Part shown: piece after piece, positions 53,235 through 64,000 of the stretch
Position numbering within the stretch: the stretch's first letter is position 1
Layout of the letters: every line of letters starts with the position of its first letter
NCBI GenBank assembly: GCA_937899645.1
Contig: CALCCD010000010.1
Location: forward strand, 1-64,000
Source: an uncultured cyanobacterium
GTDB lineage: Bacteria > Cyanobacteriota > Cyanobacteriia > Cyanobacteriales > Geitlerinemataceae
Direction of reading: 5' to 3'
DNA length: 64,000 nt
Translations under genes and position numbers: made by a program
The notes under the pieces: model-generated
Seen by the model: the letters and a program-made list of their open reading frames with translations, nothing else
Told to the model about the DNA's origin: nothing
The model's database searches: none

Positions 53235-54962
53235 CTAGCCAATCAAGCCATCGACCACTTCTTGAAGCTGGGCGATCGCGTTTTCTTCGGAGGCTTTCGC
53301 TTCGCCGATTGCGGCCACGCTTTCCTTAAGCCGAGCGCAACCGGAACCCAGCTCGGACAGCGGCGCTTCGATCGCTTCGAGCAGCGCACTGCCGGACTCG
53401 ACGCGAGCCTGGGCGCGATCGACTTCCGCGCGGGCCGTCTCAAACGCGCCGGACTGCTCCTCGAGTTTGGCGGCTTGTGCGTCGAACTCTTGCTGCTTGG
53501 CGGCCAGGACACCTTCAGCCTCGGAGAGAGCCCTTTGCAGCTCGGCGATCTCCGCCTCCAGGGCCGTCAGGGCATTAGTTTGCTCGTCTTTTTTCTGACG
53601 GAGCTGCGCTTCGATCGCGCTGGTGTTTACCGTGCCGCCGCCGGACGCAGCCGCTTCGGGCGGGTTGCCCAGCCGCCGCCAGAGAGTGTTTTGGTGGACG
53701 TTGAGCACGCGCTCCTGCTTTCGCAGGTTGCGCCGCTGGCCGACCAGGGTTTGATTGAGGAACTTGAAGCCCTCCTGGTTGTCGGCGAGTTCTTGCTGGA
53801 GCGTGTTTTGCTCGTCGCCGCTGGCGCGGGCGAGTTTGGCCTCGATCTCGTTCATGTCCATGCGCTGCATGGTCAGCTCCTCTTCTTGGTCGCTGACGAA
53901 GCGGAAGCCTTTTTCGAGTTCTTCTTGAAGCTCGCGGGCTTTCTGCTGGAGCACGTTGAGGGGCATCTGCTCGAGAGCGCTGCGATCGACGTCGAGTTCG
54001 CTGTCGTCATCGCCGCCGCCGCTCACCGAAAGCTGCGACAGGCTCGCGGCGATCGCGTCAGCCTCGGCAATGCGCTCGCCGATCGCGGCGGCGAGCTGCT
54101 GCTTGGCCTCGACGATTGACTGCTGGCCGTCGCGTCCTGCCTGAAGTCCAGCCAGCTCGCTTTGCAAACCGGCGATCGCCTCGCGCAGGCCCTGAAGCTC
54201 GCCCTGCTGGCGATCGCGTTCGGCCTCTAGGCTGGCGAGCTGCTCGCGCTCGGCTTCGATAGCAGCTCTGCGCTCGTTGCAGAGGGTCTGCTGCGCTTCG
54301 ATTTGAGCTTCGATCGCCGCGATCGCCTCGCTCGGATCGTCAGTGGTCGCCACCACTTCCGAGAGGTAAGTCAGCCACTCCTTAAGGCTATTGGCCTGGT
54401 TCTCGTCGAGACTGGCGGCCTGGGCGGCGAAGTTTTCGCGCTCGCCTTGGAACTGCGCCCAGGCGGCTTCGAGTTCCTGTTTGCGGCTCTCGACCTCGGC
54501 ACGCGACGACTCCAGCTCGCCGTTCTCCGCATCGATTTCGACCTTGCGGGCTTCGAGGGCTTCGAGCTGCTCTTGGATTTGCTCGACCTCTTCCTCGCGG
54601 CCCTGAATCTCGCTTTCGCGGCGGTTGAGTTCTTCGGCCTGGTAGGTCAGCGACGCCTTCCACTGGTCGATTTCCTCTTCCTGAGTCTTTGTCTTCTCTT
54701 GGAAGCGCGAGAAGTTTTGCAGGATCTTGACGAGTTGGGAGCCTGCTTCCCTGGGCGAGCCCTGCACCTGCTTGTTCGCGCCGACCTCGACCATCACCAG
54801 GACGCCTGCGCCGTAGCTGTTTTTAGCGTCGTCGAAGGGAATTTCGTCGCCGGAGGCGGGGCTCCAGCTTTGCTCGCTGCGTTGCTGAGCCAGGAGCTTG
54901 AGTCCGGCTTTTCCGCTACCGAAAACGCCGCTTTTCTTTTGAACTTCCGCTAGATACAGCAC
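53235..54962 (-). CDS. hmpF: HmpF-like coiled-coil pilus-motility protein
   Basis: The protein starts at the GTG at 54962 (read as MLYLAEVQKKSGVFGSGK), supported by an AGGAAG ribosome-binding site; the longer frame to 55058 is unlike the family. Its 575 residues have a compact N-terminal domain (about 1-85, LKLLAQQRSEQSWSPASGDEIPFDDAKNSYGAGVLVMVEV). Long coiled-coils fill residues ~95-340 and ~380-560, with Glu/Gln-rich heptads throughout. Known role: HmpF of filamentous cyanobacteria is needed for type IV pilus motility of hormogonia and interacts with the Hmp chemotaxis system. It is divergent from the pilG-like operon here, as expected for a partner. It contains no TM segment. Confidence 0.88.
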   Translation of the reverse strand: MLYLAEVQKKSGVFGSGKAGLKLLAQQRSEQSWSPASGDEIPFDDAKNSYGAGVLVMVEVGANKQVQGSPREAGSQLVKILQNFSRFQEKTKTQEEEIDQWKASLTYQAEELNRRESEIQGREEEVEQIQEQLEALEARKVEIDAENGELESSRAEVESRKQELEAAWAQFQGERENFAAQAASLDENQANSLKEWLTYLSEVVATTDDPSEAIAAIEAQIEAQQTLCNERRAAIEAEREQLASLEAERDRQQGELQGLREAIAGLQSELAGLQAGRDGQQSIVEAKQQLAAAIGERIAEADAIAASLSQLSVSGGGDDDSELDVDRSALEQMPLNVLQQKARELQEELEKGFRFVSDQEEELTMQRMDMNEIEAKLARASGDEQNTLQQELADNQEGFKFLNQTLVGQRRNLRKQERVLNVHQNTLWRRLGNPPEAAASGGGTVNTSAIEAQLRQKKDEQTNALTALEAEIAELQRALSEAEGVLAAKQQEFDAQAAKLEEQSGAFETARAEVDRAQARVESGSALLEAIEAPLSELGSGCARLKESVAAIGEAKASEENAIAQLQEVVDGLIG

Positions 54963-55530
54963 GCTAGTCTTCCTATTTTTAGACCGGTTTAGAAGTGCGA
55001 CTCGCTCGCGTCGAGCGGCATTTGTGCGAGTTCCCGAGGCTGTGGGCTCGGGAACCATCTGCGATCGCTTTCGTACAGCTTATGCTGCAAAAACGTCTCA
55101 GTCCACTGACGCGTCTCGCGACCGACGGCGCGACGAGCGAACGGTTTCTGCGAGCGTACTCGATCCCGGCAGTGAAATCTTGACTGACACCCCACTTTAG
55201 CGAATTTACGGACGCGAGAACGACTTCGAGTGGCGCGATCGCCTGGGGCGAAAGCACGCGACAAATTTTCTGTCTTAGATGGGCGATCGGGTCGGCGATC
55301 TCCAGCATCTAGACAACCCCAAAAGCCAGTACCCAGGGTGCTCGCCCCGTCGCTCGCGCAGCATTGGCTTGCCGATGGCCGAGAACCGCCGCATTCGTTT
55401 ACAGAGATTTAAGCGCGGATGCCATTATCGTCAGGGGAATGTCAAACTTGAACCATACCGGCGCTGCCGCGAGCTGCGCTCTCGATTGACGCCAACACTT
55501 TCCGCCGGAAGCCGCACGCTGAGTCTCGCC
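54963..55530. other. Divergent regulatory region of hmpF and the pil chemotaxis operon
   Basis: These 568 bp separate the two divergent motility units and should contain both promoters. A frame in phase with pilG extends upstream to 55279, but it lacks the PATAN pattern. A 9-bp inverted repeat is listed separately. No small gene is supported. Confidence 0.5.
55030..55055. promoter_or_regulatory. 9-bp inverted repeat upstream of hmpF
   Basis: GTTCCCGAG (55030-55038) and CTCGGGAAC (55047-55055) are perfect complements around an 8-base loop. It lies about 68 bases upstream of the hmpF start. It could be an operator or a hairpin in the 5' leader. Confidence 0.55.
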
Positions 55531-56760
55531 ATGCAGGGAAATCTCAACGAAATCGACATTCGCAGCATCCTGCAACTGATCGCCCTCGGCCAGCGCACGG
55601 GCGAGCTGTTTATCGAGACCTACCGCCCCAGCTCCGGACGTGGCGATCGCCCCAGCCACGACGCCCTCGACCGCTCCTGGTTCGTCTTCTTCGCCAACGG
55701 CCAAATCGTCTACGCCGCCGAAGTCCAAAGCCAGCACGAGCGCCTGCGCGACTGCCTGCGTTTCTACCAGCTCGATCGCCTGATGGACGAGGTGGAGTTC
55801 CCCAATCTGGCGGCGACCAACACCCCAGAGTACGCCTGCCTCTGGTACTTGCTTGAAAACCACCACCTGACGCCGGTGCAGGGCAGAACGATTTTGTGCC
55901 GGATGGTGCGAGAGACGCTATTCGAGCTGCTAGAGCTGCATCAGGGCTCGTTTATTTTCGACATGGGGCCCGCGCTCGCGCCGCAGTTAATGACGCTGCC
56001 CGTCGCCTCGCTGGTGACGAAGATCGTCCAGCAAACCCAAGACTGGAAGCGGTTTTATCCCCACGTGCAGTCGGTCGATCAATGCCCGACGATCGTCAAC
56101 CTCGAAGCGCTCCAGGAAAAGATGCCCGAGAAGGCGTTCGAGACGCTGCGCCATTTTGCCGACGGCAACACCTCGCTGCGGCGGATGGCGCGGGCGCTCA
56201 ACCGCGATATCGCCCCGATCGCCAAGGCCCTCTACCCCTACGTGCAAGCGGGCTCGATCCAGCTCCAGTGGTCGCTCAAAGCCGAGCGCAACCGGACGCT
56301 GCGGCTGCGCCAGTTTGAAGACAGCGTCCCCCGCGTGGTCTGCATTGACGACGAGCGTACGATCCGCAAGGCCGTCGAGGTGATGCTCGAGCCCCACGGC
56401 TACGAAATTTCGACGATCGGCTCCTCGCTCAAAGCGCTCTCGCTGCTGTTCCCGCTGCAGCCCGATCTGATCCTCTGCGACATCACGATGCCCGAACCGG
56501 ATGGCTACGAACTGTGCGCCATGCTGCGCCGATCGCGCGTCTTCCGCGAGATGCCGATTATTATGCTCACCGGTCGCGACGGCTTTACCGATCGCGTCAA
56601 AGCCCGCATGGTCGGTGCGACAGACTACCTGACCAAGCCGTTTTCCGAGCAGGAGCTACTGATGCTGCTCGAGCAGTACATCGGCCCCGGCGTCGCCCAT
56701 GCCAACGATCGCGCCAGCGACCTCGAGGCGGCCTTCCGCGATGCGCTCGACTCCGAGTAG
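55531..56760 (+). CDS. pilG: PATAN-domain response regulator (PilG-type)
   Basis: I set the start at the ATG at 55531 (MQGNLNEIDIRSIL), where PATAN domains typically begin, giving 409 residues; the frame extends to 55279 without support. Residues 1 to ~120 are a PATAN (DUF4388-type) domain (LQLIALGQRTGELFIE, SWFVFFANGQIVYA). A helical middle follows (about 120-265). A C-terminal receiver spans ~268-390 with phospho-acceptor Asp317 (LILCDITMPEPDGYEL), CIDDE and a conserved Lys in DYLTKPF. In cyanobacteria such PATAN-REC proteins are outputs of the pilus and phototaxis chemosensory systems and interact with pilus motor ATPases. It is the first gene of the operon with pilH, pilI, pilJ and pilL. 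Confidence 0.9.
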   Translation: MQGNLNEIDIRSILQLIALGQRTGELFIETYRPSSGRGDRPSHDALDRSWFVFFANGQIVYAAEVQSQHERLRDCLRFYQLDRLMDEVEFPNLAATNTPEYACLWYLLENHHLTPVQGRTILCRMVRETLFELLELHQGSFIFDMGPALAPQLMTLPVASLVTKIVQQTQDWKRFYPHVQSVDQCPTIVNLEALQEKMPEKAFETLRHFADGNTSLRRMARALNRDIAPIAKALYPYVQAGSIQLQWSLKAERNRTLRLRQFEDSVPRVVCIDDERTIRKAVEVMLEPHGYEISTIGSSLKALSLLFPLQPDLILCDITMPEPDGYELCAMLRRSRVFREMPIIMLTGRDGFTDRVKARMVGATDYLTKPFSEQELLMLLEQYIGPGVAHANDRASDLEAAFRDALDSE

Positions 56761-56999: not shown

Positions 57000-57365
57000 A
57001 TGAGCAAGGTTCTGGTTATCGAAGATAGTGCGACGCAGCGGGAGATGATTGCTGACCTTCTCAGGAAGAACGGCCTCACCGTCATCGAGGCGACGGACGG
57101 AATCGAAGCCTTAGACAAAATCCAGATCTCGCCCCCCGATTTGGTCATACTCGATATCGTCATGCCGAAGATGAACGGCTACGAAGTTTGCCGCCGCCTT
57201 AAGGCCGACCCCAGCATGCAGGGCGTGCCGGTGGTGATGTGCTCCTCGAAGGGCGAAGAATTCGATCGCTACTGGGGCATGAAACAAGGCGCAGATGCCT
57301 ACGTCGCCAAGCCCTTTCAGCCCAACGAGCTGGTCGGCACCGTCAAGCAAATGCTCAGAGGCTAG
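57000..57365 (+). CDS. pilH: CheY-like response regulator (PilH-type)
   Basis: This 121-residue stand-alone receiver domain has acidic pair IEDS, phospho-acceptor Asp52 (VILDIVMPKMNGYEV), Ser in VVMCSSKGEE and Lys in AYVAKPFQPNE. There is no output domain. In the cyanobacterial pil and tax operons the second regulator is a stand-alone CheY-like protein between pilG and cheW, exactly the position here. Such proteins can act as a phosphate sink or as a second output on the pilus motor. An AGGAAA-type ribosome-binding site precedes the ATG. It is 239 bp downstream of pilG and 4 bp upstream of the CheW gene. Confidence 0.93.
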   Translation: MSKVLVIEDSATQREMIADLLRKNGLTVIEATDGIEALDKIQISPPDLVILDIVMPKMNGYEVCRRLKADPSMQGVPVVMCSSKGEEFDRYWGMKQGADAYVAKPFQPNELVGTVKQMLRG

Positions 57366-57369
57366 GGCG

Positions 57370-57909
57370 ATGATCGGCAACCCCGACTTTTTAATGGGCG
57401 GCGCGGCGGACTCGAATCAAGCGTCGGAATTTCAGCAGCTCGAAACCCCCGAAGGCGAGCTACACCTGCGTTTTGCCCTCGCTTCCGGCCAGCAGCTCGT
57501 CTTGCCCGCCGTGGGGATTAACGAAGTTTTCGACCCCTCGCCGGACGAGATCACGCCAATGCCCAACGTCTCGCCGCTGCTGCTCGGAACGTTTAACGTG
57601 CGCGGTCGCGTCGTCTGGGTCGCTGACCTCGGCCAGTTCCTCGGCGACCCCAAACCGCTCAACGCCGAGCGCACCCAGCTGTTCGTGATTGCCGTCGAAG
57701 ATCAGGACACTATACTGGGGCTAGCCGTCGATCGAATCGTCAAAATGCAGTGGCTCGATATCGACAACCTGCAAGCATCGACGAGCACCCTCGATGGCAT
57801 GGCTCCGTTCCTAAAGGGAGAGTGGGTCTTTGAGGAAGAAGATCAGGTCGTAACGCTCAGTCTGCTCGATCGAGTCTCCGTGCTTCGATCGGCGCGCTGG
57901 GCTGCGTAG
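57370..57909 (+). CDS. pilI: CheW-like coupling protein (PilI-type)
   Basis: I set the start at the ATG at 57370 (MIGNPDFLMGGAADS), four bases after the pilH stop, which gives 179 residues. The CheW fold is visible: LRFALASGQQLVLPAVGINEVF, ITPMPNVSPLLLGTFNVRGRVVWVADLGQFLG, LFVIAVEDQDTILGLAVDRI. It bridges receptor and CheA in the chemosensory array. The N-terminal ~35 residues are a flexible extension. An upstream frame overlapping pilH is less likely. The gene is 159 bp upstream of pilJ, and that gap holds a triple 13-bp repeat. Confidence 0.93.
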   Translation: MIGNPDFLMGGAADSNQASEFQQLETPEGELHLRFALASGQQLVLPAVGINEVFDPSPDEITPMPNVSPLLLGTFNVRGRVVWVADLGQFLGDPKPLNAERTQLFVIAVEDQDTILGLAVDRIVKMQWLDIDNLQASTSTLDGMAPFLKGEWVFEEEDQVVTLSLLDRVSVLRSARWAA

Positions 57910-58068: not shown

Positions 58069-61000
58069 ATGGCACCAAGCACCGACGACTTCATCCAGGA
58101 GTACGAACGGGCCGAGCAGGCATACATGGATGGCAGCTACGAAGAGGCTGCCGACATTGCCTGTGACCTGATCGAGCGCGAGCCCAACGACCCCAGCACG
58201 CGACTGCTTCTCGGGCACGTCTACTGCGGAATGCAGGACTACCCGAACGCCCGATCGCAGTACGAATTCGTACTAGAACTGTCGGACGAGCCAGAATTTA
58301 TCGAGTACGCTGAAAGCGGCATCGCTTACGTCGATCGCCTCAGCGAAGCAACCGGCGGCCCCGCCTTCGCCACGGTTAACGGCGAGACCAACGGTGCGCC
58401 CGCCCTTGACACCGAAGAAGCGTTCGATATCGGCCTCGGGATCGGCGGCGAGGCAGACGGTGAGGTGGCGGAGGACAGTCCCTTTGGGCTCGACAACGGA
58501 GGCGGCAACTTTGAAGACTTCGACGAGCTAGAGGACGAATCCCAGTTTGCCGAGACCTTGGTGGACGAGAGTGACGAAGCCGGGGACGACGACCCCTTCG
58601 AGAACTTCGCCTTTAGCACCGATGCCGAGAGCCCGATGAAAGCCTGGGCGGGAGAAGTGTCGGAAGACGCCGCCCTTTCCGACGACGATCGAGCCTCGCC
58701 CTTTGGCGAATCGCCTTTCGGAGAGCTGGTCACTGAGGCTGAACCCGAAGATGACGAAACCCATTTCGATCTGGATGCGGGTGAGGCCGCGAACGGCGCT
58801 CGCGCCACCCTGTCCGAGTTTGCCGAAGAGGAGACGCTGCTCAACGACGACAGCGTCGATTATGGAAACGTCGATTACGGAAACGACGATGGCGAGGACG
58901 TCTTCGATGCTGCGGCCTTTGGTGCGGACTTCGGCACGGACGGCGACGATCCGTTAAGCGACGACCTCGAACCGGCGGCCTATCGCGGTGAGGGCGACCC
59001 GTTCCCGATCGCCGAGCGCACCGGTCAGCCCGAGCCCGAACTGCCCCACAGTACCTTTGTCGCCGAACTGCCCGACCTGCTCGGCGACGACGATCGCTCC
59101 CGCGATCCGTTCCCCACCTCCGGCCTCGGCTCCGATATCGACTCGATCGACCTGCCACAACCCTTTTCGGAGTTTGAGGGCTTCGACGAAGCGCCTTTTC
59201 AGACCGGCGAGCCCAACGAATTTAACGGCGCGGACTCTACCGATCTGGCCTTTCCCGAATGGACGCCTCAGAGTAACGCCCCCGAGCTCGGAGCCCAGAG
59301 TTTCGATACCGCCGATACCGATCTGGCCTTCGGGCAGTTTGAAGCCGACAGCGGCACGACGGAAACTTACGTGATGGATCCGCCGCCCGCGCCCAGCGAC
59401 TTTCAGGGCGGCGATCTTCGGAGCGATCTCCAGGACTGGGACGACGATCTACCCGACGGCCAGACGATCTCCGCCCAGGCCCCAAACTCTAGTCTGCCCT
59501 TCGCCGCCAGCGCGGCCCAGGACGCTGAAGACGACGATCGCACCTATATCGCCCCGGGCTCCGAGGAGAACGGATTCGACTTCGATGAGGGCGCCTTCGG
59601 CACCGAAGCCTTCGAGGCCGAAGGCAATGAAGACGGGTTCGGCTTCGATGCTTTCGATGAAGAGTTCGACAGCTCTAGCTTTGTTGGCGAAGAGTCCACC
59701 GGCAACGGCTTCACCCAAAGCAACACCAACAGCGTCGATTTTCTCGACGAAGACGACTTTGGCAGCTTCGGCGATATGGACGCCGTACCCCGCTTCGATG
59801 AGGCAACGAGTGCCAACTTTGGAGCCGATGAGTTTCTCGACGAGGTCAGCGATTTCGAGAGCGGCGGCGGCAACGTCCCCTTCTCCGATATGACCGACGG
59901 CTCGGTGATCCAGGACGAAGAGCTATTTAGCATCGGCACTCAGTCCGAAGCCCTGCCCTCCTTTGCCTCCACCGATAGCGGCATCGCCGAGTCGTCGTCC
60001 GCCGGACCAGAGCAACAGGGTCCGATCGCGTTCTTTGAAAACGCACCGCTACGCACCAAATCCTGGATTGCGGCGCTGGTGGTCGGCGTGCTCTCGGCCT
60101 CGACCGTCGCGGGCATCAGCCACTACTCCAGCCGTCGCTTCGTCGACGATCGGAACGTGGCGATCGAAGTGCGCCGCCAGCTCCTGCCGAAAATCCAGCT
60201 CATCGGCCTAGCGATGTCCGTGGCCTCGGGCGTAGCTGGGGGCGGTATCACCTGGATACTCGGTCGCATCAGCGCCGCCCAGGTGCGCCGTACGACGATC
60301 GGCCTGACCGGCGCGTTCGAGTCGATTTCCCAAGGCGATCTCAACGCCCGCGCCGCCGTAATGTCCGAAGACGAGTTCGGCCAGCTTTCGATCAAGTTCA
60401 ACCAAATGGCGCGGGTGGTCTTTACGACGACCAACGAAGCCCAGCGCCGCGCCGAAGAGATGGAGCAGGCCAAAGAAGACTTGCAGCGCCAGGTGATTCG
60501 TCTCCTGGACGACGTGGAAGGCGCGGCTCGCGGTGACTTGACCGTGACCGCCGAAGTGACCGCCGACGTGCTGGGCGCGGTCGCCGACTCGTTTAACTTG
60601 ACGATTCAAAACCTGCGCGAGATCGTCCAACAGGTGAAGCAGGCTGCCCGTCAGGTGAGTAAGGGCGCGACAGACAGTGAATCGTTCGCGCGATCGCTAG
60701 CCTCTGACGCCCTCAGACAAGCCGAAGAGCTAGCGGCGACCCTGAACTCGGTGCAGGTGATGACTAACTCGATTCAGCAGGTGGCCAAGAGCGCCCGCGA
60801 AGCCGAGGAGGTGGCACGCTCCGCGTCGGTTACCGCACTCAAGGGCGGCGAGGCCGTGGAACGCACCGTGGCCAGCATCCTAGAGATTCGCGAAACGGTC
60901 GCCGAAACCACTCGCAAGGTGAAGCGTCTGGCGGAATCGTCCCAGGAGATTTCCAAGATCGTCGCGCTGATCAGTGGTATTGCTTCGCGGACGAACCTGC

Positions 61001-61476
61001 TGGCACTCAATGCCAGTATCGAGGCGGCACGAGCGGGCGAAGCCGGTCGGGGTTTCGCGATCGTTGCTGACGAAGTCCGCCAGCTCGCCGACCGTTCGGC
61101 GAAAGCGCTGAAGGAAATCGAGCAGATCGTGATGCAAATTCAAAGCGAAACGGGCTCGGTGATGATGGCCATGGAAGAAGGCCAGCAGCAGGTTATCGGC
61201 GGCACGAAGCTGGCCGAACAGGCCAAGCGCTCGCTCGAGGACATCATTCAGGTGGCGAACCGCATCGACGTCCTGGTGCGATCGATTCGCGCCGACACCG
61301 TCGAGCAAACCGAAACCTCCCGCGCGGTGGCGCAGGTCATGCAGGCCGTCGAGCTGACGGCCCAGGAAACCTCCCAGGAAGCGCACCGCGTGTCGGGCTC
61401 GCTGCAAAACCTGGTGGGCGTCTCGCGCGACCTGCTGACCTCGGTGGAACGTTTCCGCGTCGAGGCCACCGACTAA
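58069..61476 (+). CDS. pilJ: Methyl-accepting chemotaxis protein (PilJ-type) with long acidic N-terminus
   Basis: This is a 1135-residue receptor starting at the ATG at 58069 (an upstream TTG is in frame). Residues ~5-95 are TPR-like ([24 protein letters not shown]). About 100-650 is a strongly acidic Phe/Gly/Asp-rich probably disordered segment. Two TM helices (about 664-686 and 708-730) enclose only about 20 residues, so there is no real periplasmic sensor. HAMP spans about 730-785 and the MCP signalling domain ~830-1135, with the conserved tip [32 protein letters not shown]. The TPR and acidic part must face the cytosol if the N-terminus is inside. It is the receptor of the pilus chemosensory array. 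Confidence 0.92.
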
Positions 61477-61522: not shown

Positions 61523-64000
61523 ATGCAACCCGAACAGCAGCGAATTTTGGGCTACTTCATCGAAGAAGCTGCCGACCACCTCCAGACGATCGAGCGCGGT
61601 TTGCTCAACCTGCAGGCGACGATCGACGATGCCGAATTCGCCAACGAAATTTTTCGGGCGGCGCACTCGGTCAAAGGTGGCGCTGCGATGCTGGGGCTGA
61701 GCAGCATTCAGACCATGTCCCACCGCCTCGAGGACTATTTCAAAATCCTCAAAGATCGCCCGATCGTCGTCGATCGCGAGGTGGAATCGAACTTTCTGCG
61801 CGTGTTCGACGCGCTCCAAGGCCAGGTGGGCGAGCTGCAGCGCACCGGCGATCCCGGCAGCCTTGATGAAGGCAGCGTCGCCGAACTCGACCCCGTTTTT
61901 GCCGAGCTGAAGTCCCAACTCGATCGCCTCGCCCAGCAGCCAGAACAGCAACTCGAGGAGGACACCGATCGCACCGACGCCACCTTTATGGTCGCGCCGG
62001 AAGTGCCCAGCGTCCGCCCCACGACCCTGCCTCTGTCCCAGCCCTCCGAAGAACAAAGCGCCCTCCAGCTAATTTTTCACACCGACGTGCTAGCGCGCCT
62101 GCGAGAGATCTTGCAGCTCTTCCAACAGCCTGAGACTCTGGAAACTCGCAAGCAAATCTGCGAAATTTGCCGCGTGCTGGCCAAAGTCGGCATTCAGTTC
62201 GAGCTGCCCCAGTGGCGGCACTTACTCGACGTCACCCATGAGGCAGTCTCCCAAGAGAGCAACAGCTTTGGCGAGCTGGCGACGGTGGCGATTAAAGAGC
62301 TCAAGCAGGCCCAGGAGCTGGTGCTGGCCGGACGCGAATCGGAAATCGCGGTCAGCGAGTCGCTCCAGGCGCTGCTGCCTCTAGAGCCCGTGCGCGACGA
62401 TGCGACGGATGGAGCCTTTGACGATCTGTTCGGTGACGCCGACGGGCTGGACGATTTGGGCGACCTGGGCGGTGCGGGCGATGCGGGCGATGCGATTGGC
62501 GCGGGCGAAGACGACGATCTGGGCGGGGACGACCTCTTCGGCGATCTCGACCTCGACGGTGGCGAAGCTGCCGCGCTCGAAACTGCGCCCTCCGACAGTG
62601 ACAAGTCGCGCAACGGCCCGGAAGTAGGGGCGGTGGAACTCAACAGCCTCGCGGATCTGTTCGAGGCGGATCTGAGTGACCTCGACAGTTGGGACAATTT
62701 GGAGGGCAATCCGACAGCGGCGGACAATCCCCTGGGCGATCCCGACGCGGACGATTTAGGCAGCGAGTTTGCCGACCTGTTCGCCAGCGATGACGCGCCC
62801 GCAGAGCCTGTATCTGAAAGCGATGGTGACGATCTCGACAGCCTCTTCGACGGCATTTCCGATGGCGATGGCGACGAAAACGGGTTCGATCTGGCTCAGT
62901 TTACCGAGGCGCAGCAGTCGATCGAGACCGACGACGGAGCTGAGGCGAATGGCGAACTCGACGGCGACTTTGACGATTTGTTCGATCTCGACGGGCCTGC
63001 TGAGGCTGCTTTGGGTCGCGACTCGGGAGGCGGCGCGGGCGACGCCCCCGAAAACGGCAGCGGCGACGAGCTGGACTTTTTGCTAGAGGAAAATAGCCCC
63101 GACGCGCCCGCCGATCGTGCGATCGACCCCGCGATCGACGGGATTGACTTGAGCCTGGAAGGCGAGCTGCTCGGCCTCGACCCCGACCTGCCCGCCGATC
63201 CGCTGGCTGAAGAACTAGCCGCCGACGGGCTGGGCGACCTCGAAGCACTGTTCGGCGGCGCGGGAATAGACGCGAGCCCCGCAGCCCGCCCCGCGCCGGG
63301 GCCCGCCCCGAAGGACGGTTTCGACGACCTGTTCGCGATGGACGACGCACCGGGCCTCACGCCCGCAGCCATCCCGAGCGAGCCGGACTTCGACGACCTC
63401 GATCTATTCGATCGCGATATCGGCGAGGCCGAAACCTTCGCGCCGCCCCAAACGACGCCGCCGATCGAGTCGGGCGACGATCTCTCCCTAGACGGGCTGT
63501 TTGACGATCTAGACGGCGGCGCGGCTAACGGTGCGGCTGACGGCGCGGTTAGCGATGCCGATGGCGATTTTGGTGATTTGTTTGGCGATGCTGGCGGCGG
63601 CTCGGAGAACGGGCTGGGCGCTGGTTTGGACGAGTTGGATGCCGAGCTAGATTTGGGCCTGGGCGACGGCCTGGGCGCAGGATTCGACTCGGTGGGCGAG
63701 CTGCCGGACGAGCCCGACGTATTAGACTTCGATGCGGCCTTTGGTGACGACCTCGATCTTTCGGAAGCGCTGGCGGACGTGTCGCTAGAGGGCGAAGCGC
63801 TGGCCGACCTGGCGAGCTTCGACAACGCCCCGATCGAGGTTGTCGATCCCGACGTAGATCTGAGCTTGTTTCCCCATTTGGGCATTTTGCTCAATTCACC
63901 GGAACCGGAGGCGGGGACAGCGGTGTTCGACGCCCTCGCTCGCTATCTCGATCGCGAGCCCGTGGTGTCCGCGCCTGCCCCCACAGCGAGCGCGGCGAGC
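61523..64000 (+). CDS. pilL: CheA-type hybrid histidine kinase (PilL-type), 5' part
   Basis: The ATG at 61523 follows an AAGGGG element by six bases. The frame is open to the window end, 826 codons, so the catalytic domains are not visible. Residues ~1-110 are an Hpt domain with phospho-acceptor His48 (FRAAHSVKGGAAMLG). About 180-275 is a second helical module. From about residue 290 to the edge the protein is acidic low-complexity sequence rich in DDLF-type motifs (FDDLFGDAD, FADLFASDD, FDDLFAMDD, at least ten). CheA homologues normally continue with dimerisation, HATPase and CheW domains, and PilL-type ones end in a receiver. The gene follows pilJ by 46 bp. Confidence 0.88.
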   Translation, partial: MQPEQQRILGYFIEEAADHLQTIERGLLNLQATIDDAEFANEIFRAAHSVKGGAAMLGLSSIQTMSHRLEDYFKILKDRPIVVDREVESNFLRVFDALQGQVGELQRTGDPGSLDEGSVAELDPVFAELKSQLDRLAQQPEQQLEEDTDRTDATFMVAPEVPSVRPTTLPLSQPSEEQSALQLIFHTDVLARLREILQLFQQPETLETRKQICEICRVLAKVGIQFELPQWRHLLDVTHEAVSQESNSFGELATVAIKELKQAQELVLAGRESEIAVSESLQALLPLEPVRDDATDGAFDDLFGDADGLDDLGDLGGAGDAGDAIGAGEDDDLGGDDLFGDLDLDGGEAAALETAPSDSDKSRNGPEVGAVELNSLADLFEADLSDLDSWDNLEGNPTAADNPLGDPDADDLGSEFADLFASDDAPAEPVSESDGDDLDSLFDGISDGDGDENGFDLAQFTEAQQSIETDDGAEANGELDGDFDDLFDLDGPAEAALGRDSGGGAGDAPENGSGDELDFLLEENSPDAPADRAIDPAIDGIDLSLEGELLGLDPDLPADPLAEELAADGLGDLEALFGGAGIDASPAARPAPGPAPKDGFDDLFAMDDAPGLTPAAIPSEPDFDDLDLFDRDIGEAETFAPPQTTPPIESGDDLSLDGLFDDLDGGAANGAADGAVSDADGDFGDLFGDAGGGSENGLGAGLDELDAELDLGLGDGLGAGFDSVGELPDEPDVLDFDAAFGDDLDLSEALADVSLEGEALADLASFDNAPIEVVDPDVDLSLFPHLGILLNSPEPEAGTAVFDALARYLDREPVVSAPAPTASAAS

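Follow-up and report, generated by a model that had tools for sequence, protein, structure and literature searches.

The window, the whole 64,000-nucleotide stretch of cyanobacterial DNA analyzed here, contains a complete hmp locus, in which hmpF is divergent and is followed by hmpA-B-C-D-E, as assigned with Pfam and NCBIfam (Table 1). The CheA gene is hmpE, the last gene of this locus. It encodes a hybrid CheA of the PilL/Tfp class of 1,529 residues, and its full open reading frame (L009:4624-9213) runs beyond the window end. HmpE orthologues share 54-89% identity in the core. HmpF, a PATAN/DUF4388-REC protein, a CheY, a CheW, and an MCP surround hmpE, the neighborhood of an Hmp system. The true start of hmpA is likely near 55531. 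Downstream of hmpE on the same strand lies a gene for a BY-kinase/Wzc-like chain-length protein, judged by its translation (L009:9376-11580). Short proteins of ~150-190 residues that match just the N-terminal ~150 positions of HmpF were also encountered (G000:C128:59419-59970 and ~40 relatives); the corresponding frame in the window's genome has one internal TAG.

Table 1 Features of the hmp locus, in window positions
Feature	Positions	Strand	Description and evidence
hmpF	53235..55058	-	Coiled-coil T4P regulator, 607 aa, divergent from hmpA; NCBIfam NF038350 taxis_HmpF E=6.9e-138
hmpA	55279..56760	+	DUF4388 + REC; Pfam DUF4388 6.3e-31, Response_reg
hmpB	57000..57365	+	CheY-like; Pfam Response_reg E=2.2e-29
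hmpC	57370..57909	+	CheW; Pfam CheW E=6.7e-24
hmpD	58069..61476	+	MCP: N-terminal TPR-like cytoplasmic domain, acidic Phe-rich region, TM, HAMP, MA domain
HmpD acidic Phe-rich region	58354..60033	+	No [FL]xxLF; PF enriched
HmpD conserved block	59734..59802	+	Consensus FLDEFDEFDDLGxIPxFDL; diverged in the window's genus
hmpE	61523..64000 (extends to contig 66112)	+	PilL-type hybrid CheA, aa 1-826 of 1529; ORF, Pfam, orthologues
P1/Hpt domain	61523..61936	+	HmpE aa 1-138; Pfam Hpt E=1e-14; AlphaFold2 pLDDT >90; VIA-align Z 17.9 vs CheA P1 1i5n
Second helical bundle	62048..62335	+	HmpE aa 176-271, Hpt-like fold; AlphaFold2 pLDDT ~95; VIA-align Z ~11 vs Hpt structures, near background for helical bundles
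Acidic disordered motif linker	62393..64000 (ends past window)	+	HmpE aa 291 to ~860; composition; AlphaFold2 pLDDT
Motif 1	62417..62431	+	FDDLF
Motif 2	62528..62539	+	DDLF
Conserved anchor	62615..62704	+	GPEVGAVELNSLADLFEADLSDLDSWDNLE, contains motif 3; PSSM, genome search, AlphaFold2 helix
Motif 3	inside anchor	+	LADLF, HmpE aa 376-380
Motif 4	62768..62782	+	FADLF; orthologues DFSDLL/F
Motif 5	62834..62848	+	LDSLF
Motif 6	62969..62983	+	FDDLF
Motif 7	63239..63253	+	LEALF
Motif 8	63320..63334	+	FDDLF
Motif 9	63389..63409	+	FDDLDLF
Motif 10	63488..63502	+	LDGLF
Motif 11	63569..63583	+	FGDLF
Motif 12 region	63866..63952	+	LFPHLGILLN...VFDALARYLD; sister genera FPELEILLS...FDALEAYLD

Pfam placed the HmpE domains at residues 8-89 (Hpt), 875-932 (H-kinase_dim), 1080-1218 (HATPase), 1229-1365 (CheW), and 1397-1509 (REC), that is, the full set of a Tfp-class hybrid CheA, with its C-terminal REC, on one polypeptide. 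The acidic region that the initial annotation described as the tail of CheA is an internal linker, with H-kinase_dim to REC lying C-terminal to it. This linker of ~570 residues (20% D, 8% E) separates two N-terminal Hpt-fold domains from the dimerization domain and occupies the place where other CheAs have P2. Pfam returned no P2/CheY-binding domain between P1 and P3, an interval filled by the Hpt-like bundle and then the low-confidence linker, and neither Pfam nor NCBIfam had a match within the linker. AlphaFold2 modeling of residues 1-430 with 22 sequences folded the Hpt domain (1-138) and a second four-helix bundle (176-268) with pLDDT >90, and left the linker mostly below 50. The second bundle has no Hpt match in Pfam and, judged by its predicted fold, is probably a degenerate Hpt. 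Elsewhere, a stand-alone 310-residue PilL-N-like paralogue (G000:C49:29836-30132; L001:1483-2415) has an Hpt 59% identical to HmpE P1 and a region resembling the second bundle, without an acidic linker; HmpE is unsplit in that genome.

Short Leu-Phe motifs recur in the linker far beyond its composition. Between residues ~291 and 836 there were 12 LF (3.45 expected), 8 DLF (0.70 expected), 4 DDLF (0.15 expected), and 9 strict [FL]xxLF (0.58 expected), counts that none of 2,000 composition-preserving shuffles reached. The earlier count of at least ten DDLF-like motifs is therefore right if loose matches are included (11-12 copies) but not for the strict or literal form. The copies encode the same residues by different codons, and repeat finding on the linker DNA gave weak, dispersed similarity among them. 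Tandem Repeats Finder reported no tandem array of motifs, just one 12-base array of 2.7 copies in the linker, and recent tandem duplication as the origin of the motifs in this genome is thus unsupported.

Conservation was examined within the genus and across orthologues. Aligned among three species only, and with the motifs themselves helping to guide the alignment, 31 of 33 motif residues (PHI, L, and F; 94%) were identical in all three, compared with 32 of 70 other linker L/F (46%; Fisher p ~1e-6) and with 163 of 547 linker positions outside the motifs (30%, with many indels). Motifs preserved while the surrounding linker is scrambled are, at the sequence level, a sign of purifying selection on the motifs. 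The wider set comprised 52 related-genome loci plus additional named genomes, among them Nostoc, Calothrix, Trichodesmium, and Pseudanabaena. Two amphipathic motifs were 5-6-fold enriched over 67 HmpE orthologue linkers (41,797 residues): [FLIVM]xxLF (PHIxxLF), with 263 occurrences for 50 expected, and the FxxLxx[LM][LF] type (FxxLxxLL), with 293 for 48. Hydrophobic residues spaced i+3, i+4, and i+7 were over-represented in HmpE linkers (z 10.0, 3.6, and 2.5), and not in HmpD; such spacings are the signature of amphipathic helices, here predicted ones. Eight cyanobacterial CheA paralogues had an excess of neither motif type, and 38 outgroup (proteobacterial) PilL sequence windows, which include folded Hpt sequence, had no PHIxxLF excess and were mildly enriched, two-fold, in the FxxLxxLL type.

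Motif copy number and the literal motif vary widely among orthologues, as does linker length (about 120 to 1650 residues). Among 68 orthologue linkers of at least 200 residues, 62 were individually enriched (p<0.05) in PHIxxLF/PHIxxLxxLL, whereas 13 had at most one strict [FL]xxLF, indicating that the literal DDLF is dispensable and that the amphipathic class persists. Orthologues that keep the acidic region without the motif, named in the initial annotation as evidence against its reading, thus exist as a minority for the strict form, but the broader class is enriched in most. Sister genera (e.g., L043-L047) keep an acidic linker with few LF motifs, and some linkers (L087, L057, L099, L077, and L082) had no motif enrichment. 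Literal DDLF thus stands out in some genera, the window's among them, whereas the motif class is general. Tandem protein repeats (LEAMFGEE...SDLFGS; NMFGEDLSATP) were seen in the HmpE linkers of L052, L053, and L114, with proteins of up to 2582 residues.

HmpE/PilL is apparently split in several lineages, either between Hpt and the second bundle or between the bundle and the linker (L059, L060, L067, L072, L074, L076-L078, L080, L084-L089, L101, L113, L116, L121, and L126). Some of these splits may be assembly or sequencing breaks; a split pilL-N/pilL-C is known from Synechocystis (PMC7656254). Where the gene is split, as in ~20 genomes, it is the kinase polypeptide that carries the acidic linker.

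One copy of the motif, motif 3, is embedded in a 30-residue element with the consensus GPEVGxAELN[ST]LADLFEGxxPxLDxxW, here called the anchor, which scored +62.4 with a PSSM against a shuffle maximum of -16. It is the first conserved element past the pseudo-Hpt, and its position is roughly constant, in most cases 30-170 residues from the start of the linker. Residues V368, G369, E372, L376, L379, and F380 were invariant in the 22-sequence alignment, in which the surroundings are poorly alignable. AlphaFold2 predicted a helix at 373-381 that coincides with the anchor (local pLDDT about 55-61), and a model of a relative's anchor-to-REC segment (mean pLDDT 51) again had the anchor helix, at its residues 10-20 (pLDDT ~55). 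In whole-genome searches, 36 of 59 relatives and 36 of the 156 genomes sampled from the phylum carried the anchor, each a single time and invariably in a frame compatible with HmpE; none was found outside HmpE in these searches. Its absence falls mostly in lineages with split genes.

The MCP of the same locus, HmpD, had been credited with a comparable acidic Phe-rich segment. Size and composition are indeed alike (~560 residues, acidic, Phe-rich, cytoplasmic), but the motif is not: the HmpD segment contains neither [FL]xxLF nor DLF, has a single LF where 2.9 are expected, and avoids adjacent hydrophobics. Over 27 HmpD orthologues the broad motif was depleted (2 occurrences, 14.7 expected) and PF was enriched (119, with 64 expected), and a motif shared with the MCP was rejected on this depletion. 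Besides the block listed in Table 1, the region holds further conserved blocks, namely, PF sites and a DDEIFSI-type block (D.E.F.I) before the membrane. The conserved blocks are likely docking sites of their own, going by sequence conservation. The earlier idea of a common factor docked by both CheA and MCP through a comparable motif is unsupported, given this depletion and HmpD's own blocks. The HmpE anchor and the HmpD block were both present in 38 genomes, both absent in 13, and found singly in 12 and 3, an association with Fisher p 7e-5 when relatedness is ignored; on the tree it comes down to only ~3 phylogenetically independent comparisons and is not significant. This co-occurrence is suggestive, and a common partner of HmpE and HmpD is possible.

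The initial proposal that the repeated short linear motifs serve as docking sites fits these results well, in that the motifs behave as selected SLiMs both in orthologue enrichment and in within-genus conservation. Since they are preserved inside a scrambled linker, they are probably docking sites, and the linker, with selected repeated short motifs in a region whose disorder is taken from low pLDDT only, has the makeup of a multivalent SLiM scaffold. We consider it very likely that it is a docking scaffold of some kind.

More specifically, we favor a multivalent disordered scaffold that replaces P2 and has an HmpA/PilG-type regulator as its most likely client, a reading to which we assign a probability of roughly 0.45. 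Each copy (PHIxxLF or PHIxxLxxLL) would be able to form a short amphipathic helix, and the Asp and Glu residues around it would keep it exposed to solvent. The motifs would bind one hydrophobic groove on the partner, weakly when single and avidly together. The anchor would probably be the specific high-affinity site, with the other copies raising local concentration, and the regulator would be held beside the kinase for fast phosphotransfer despite the apparent lack of P2. Binding, helix formation on binding, and avidity are steps that we infer, and the client is weakly indicated; for an HmpA-type regulator as the main client we see somewhat less than even odds.

Besides the motif excess, the motif conservation, the HmpE-specific anchor, and the lack of a P2 match in Pfam described above, three lines of evidence lead us to favor this reading. 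More than half of CheAs have unstructured sequence in place of P2 (PMC10782961). In Synechocystis two-hybrid assays, Hik43 (PilL-C) bound Rre6 (PilG) and Hik36 (PilL-N) and not Rre7, and both interactions were kept by C-terminally truncated Hik43 and lost on N-terminal deletion (PMC7656254). Third, the linker stays with the kinase half in split genes. Counting against this reading are the parting of linker and Hpt domain in split genes, unexpected for a role purely in P1 proximity, the wide variation in copy number and literal motif, and the linkers without enrichment. Against HmpA as the client, the N-terminal Hik43 fragment also holds the dimerization domain, which alone could explain the two-hybrid result, and the Synechocystis protein is of the split-gene type, whose sampled relatives mostly lack the anchor. 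Co-evolution was rejected as a way to pick the partner: conservation of HmpA, HmpC, and HmpF all falls with overall divergence, and none is clearly singled out. With kinase-core divergence removed, divergence against anchor state gave residual p values of 0.086 for HmpA, 0.086 for HmpC, and 0.019 for HmpF, so that HmpA divergence follows anchor state no more closely than that of the other two. The TPR-like HmpD N terminus (in 58 of 59 related genomes) and HmpF (in 59 of 59) are near-universal among relatives and uninformative on the anchor's partner.

The main rival client is HmpF, the cyanobacterial coiled-coil activator of the pilus motors, which the kinase array would directly capture or release at the pole. 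HmpF, like the motif linker, is a cyanobacterial speciality, its gene is encoded beside hmpA here, localization of HmpF depends on the Hmp system (PMC11407516), and HmpF alone had a residual divergence nominally associated with anchor state, at a p value uncorrected for phylogeny. In Synechocystis, PilJ and McpA were also recovered with HmpF by co-precipitation (PMC7002697), but this points to the MCP, which is without the [FL]xxLF motif; genomes without the anchor still have HmpF, and we found no direct HmpE-HmpF contact in the literature searched. We regard HmpF as an unlikely main client. Slightly less likely still is a stickers-and-spacers arrangement, in which the linker builds or clusters the array by self-association, by co-condensation with the acidic region of HmpD, or by binding to the TPR-like domain of HmpD. 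One operon does encode two long acidic aromatic/Leu-rich regions, the TPR-like domain is nearly always there, and anchor and HmpD block co-occur, but both regions are strongly acidic, which makes simple mutual attraction unlikely, their motif grammars differ, and the co-occurrence loses significance on the tree.

Intramolecular regulation, with the motifs folding back on the Hpt, pseudo-Hpt, kinase, or CheW domain and inhibiting or ordering the kinase, would suit a linker that joins P1 to the kinase and an anchor that comes first among the conserved elements after the pseudo-Hpt. We judge it improbable: neither AlphaFold2 model placed the anchor helix confidently in cis, a weak argument because the quality of the second model is too low for docking to be assessed. 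Finally, a featureless acidic spacer, its LF motifs compositional noise or by-products of repeat expansion, would agree with the variable linker length and the protein repeats in three loci but is strongly disfavored by the shuffle tests, the motif conservation inside a diverging linker, the lineage-specific anchor, and the different codons with no DNA tandem array within the window.

If the P2-replacing scaffold is real, capture of a regulator by a chain of motifs would be a docking mode undescribed for chemosensory kinases in the literature searched, and it would suggest how P2-less CheAs might recruit their regulators. It also bears on how Hmp/Tax3, the most widespread cyanobacterial chemosensory system, signals to the type IV pilus motors at a single pole. 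More broadly, and as a rather doubtful generalization, a selected motif chain may have replaced the folded P2 in cyanobacterial pilus arrays, where it would capture a regulator (HmpA or HmpF) and tune its polar dwell time with a lineage-variable copy number. For partner finding, the anchor and the repeated motifs provide a defined 30-residue bait and LF-to-AA mutants.

The family and architecture of HmpE are known: the described cyanobacterial HmpE/PilL (Tax3) hybrid CheA has the same gene order (hmpF, hmpA-E) and the same domains (Hpt, kinase core, CheW, and REC). Absent from the literature searched (mostly papers available without subscription) are the selected multi-motif linker and the anchor. 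Eukaryotic acidic activation domains, in which acidic neighbors expose aromatic and Leu motifs in a disordered chain (the acidic exposure model; PMC10550315), offer an analogy only, as domain of life, function, and partner differ. The alpha-carboxysome scaffold CsoS2 is likewise disordered with repeated short motifs, and its helical N-terminal repeats make multivalent, low-affinity contacts with Rubisco (PMC11365436), but it is a structural scaffold of unrelated sequence with a known client. Among chemosensory kinases, the text consulted in PMC10782961 does not mention conserved repeated motifs in CheAs with an unstructured region in place of P2. The CheA P2/CheY-binding domain itself has the same position between P1 and P3 and the same proposed job of bringing the regulator to the kinase, but P2 is a folded domain, whereas HmpE has a disordered multi-motif linker.
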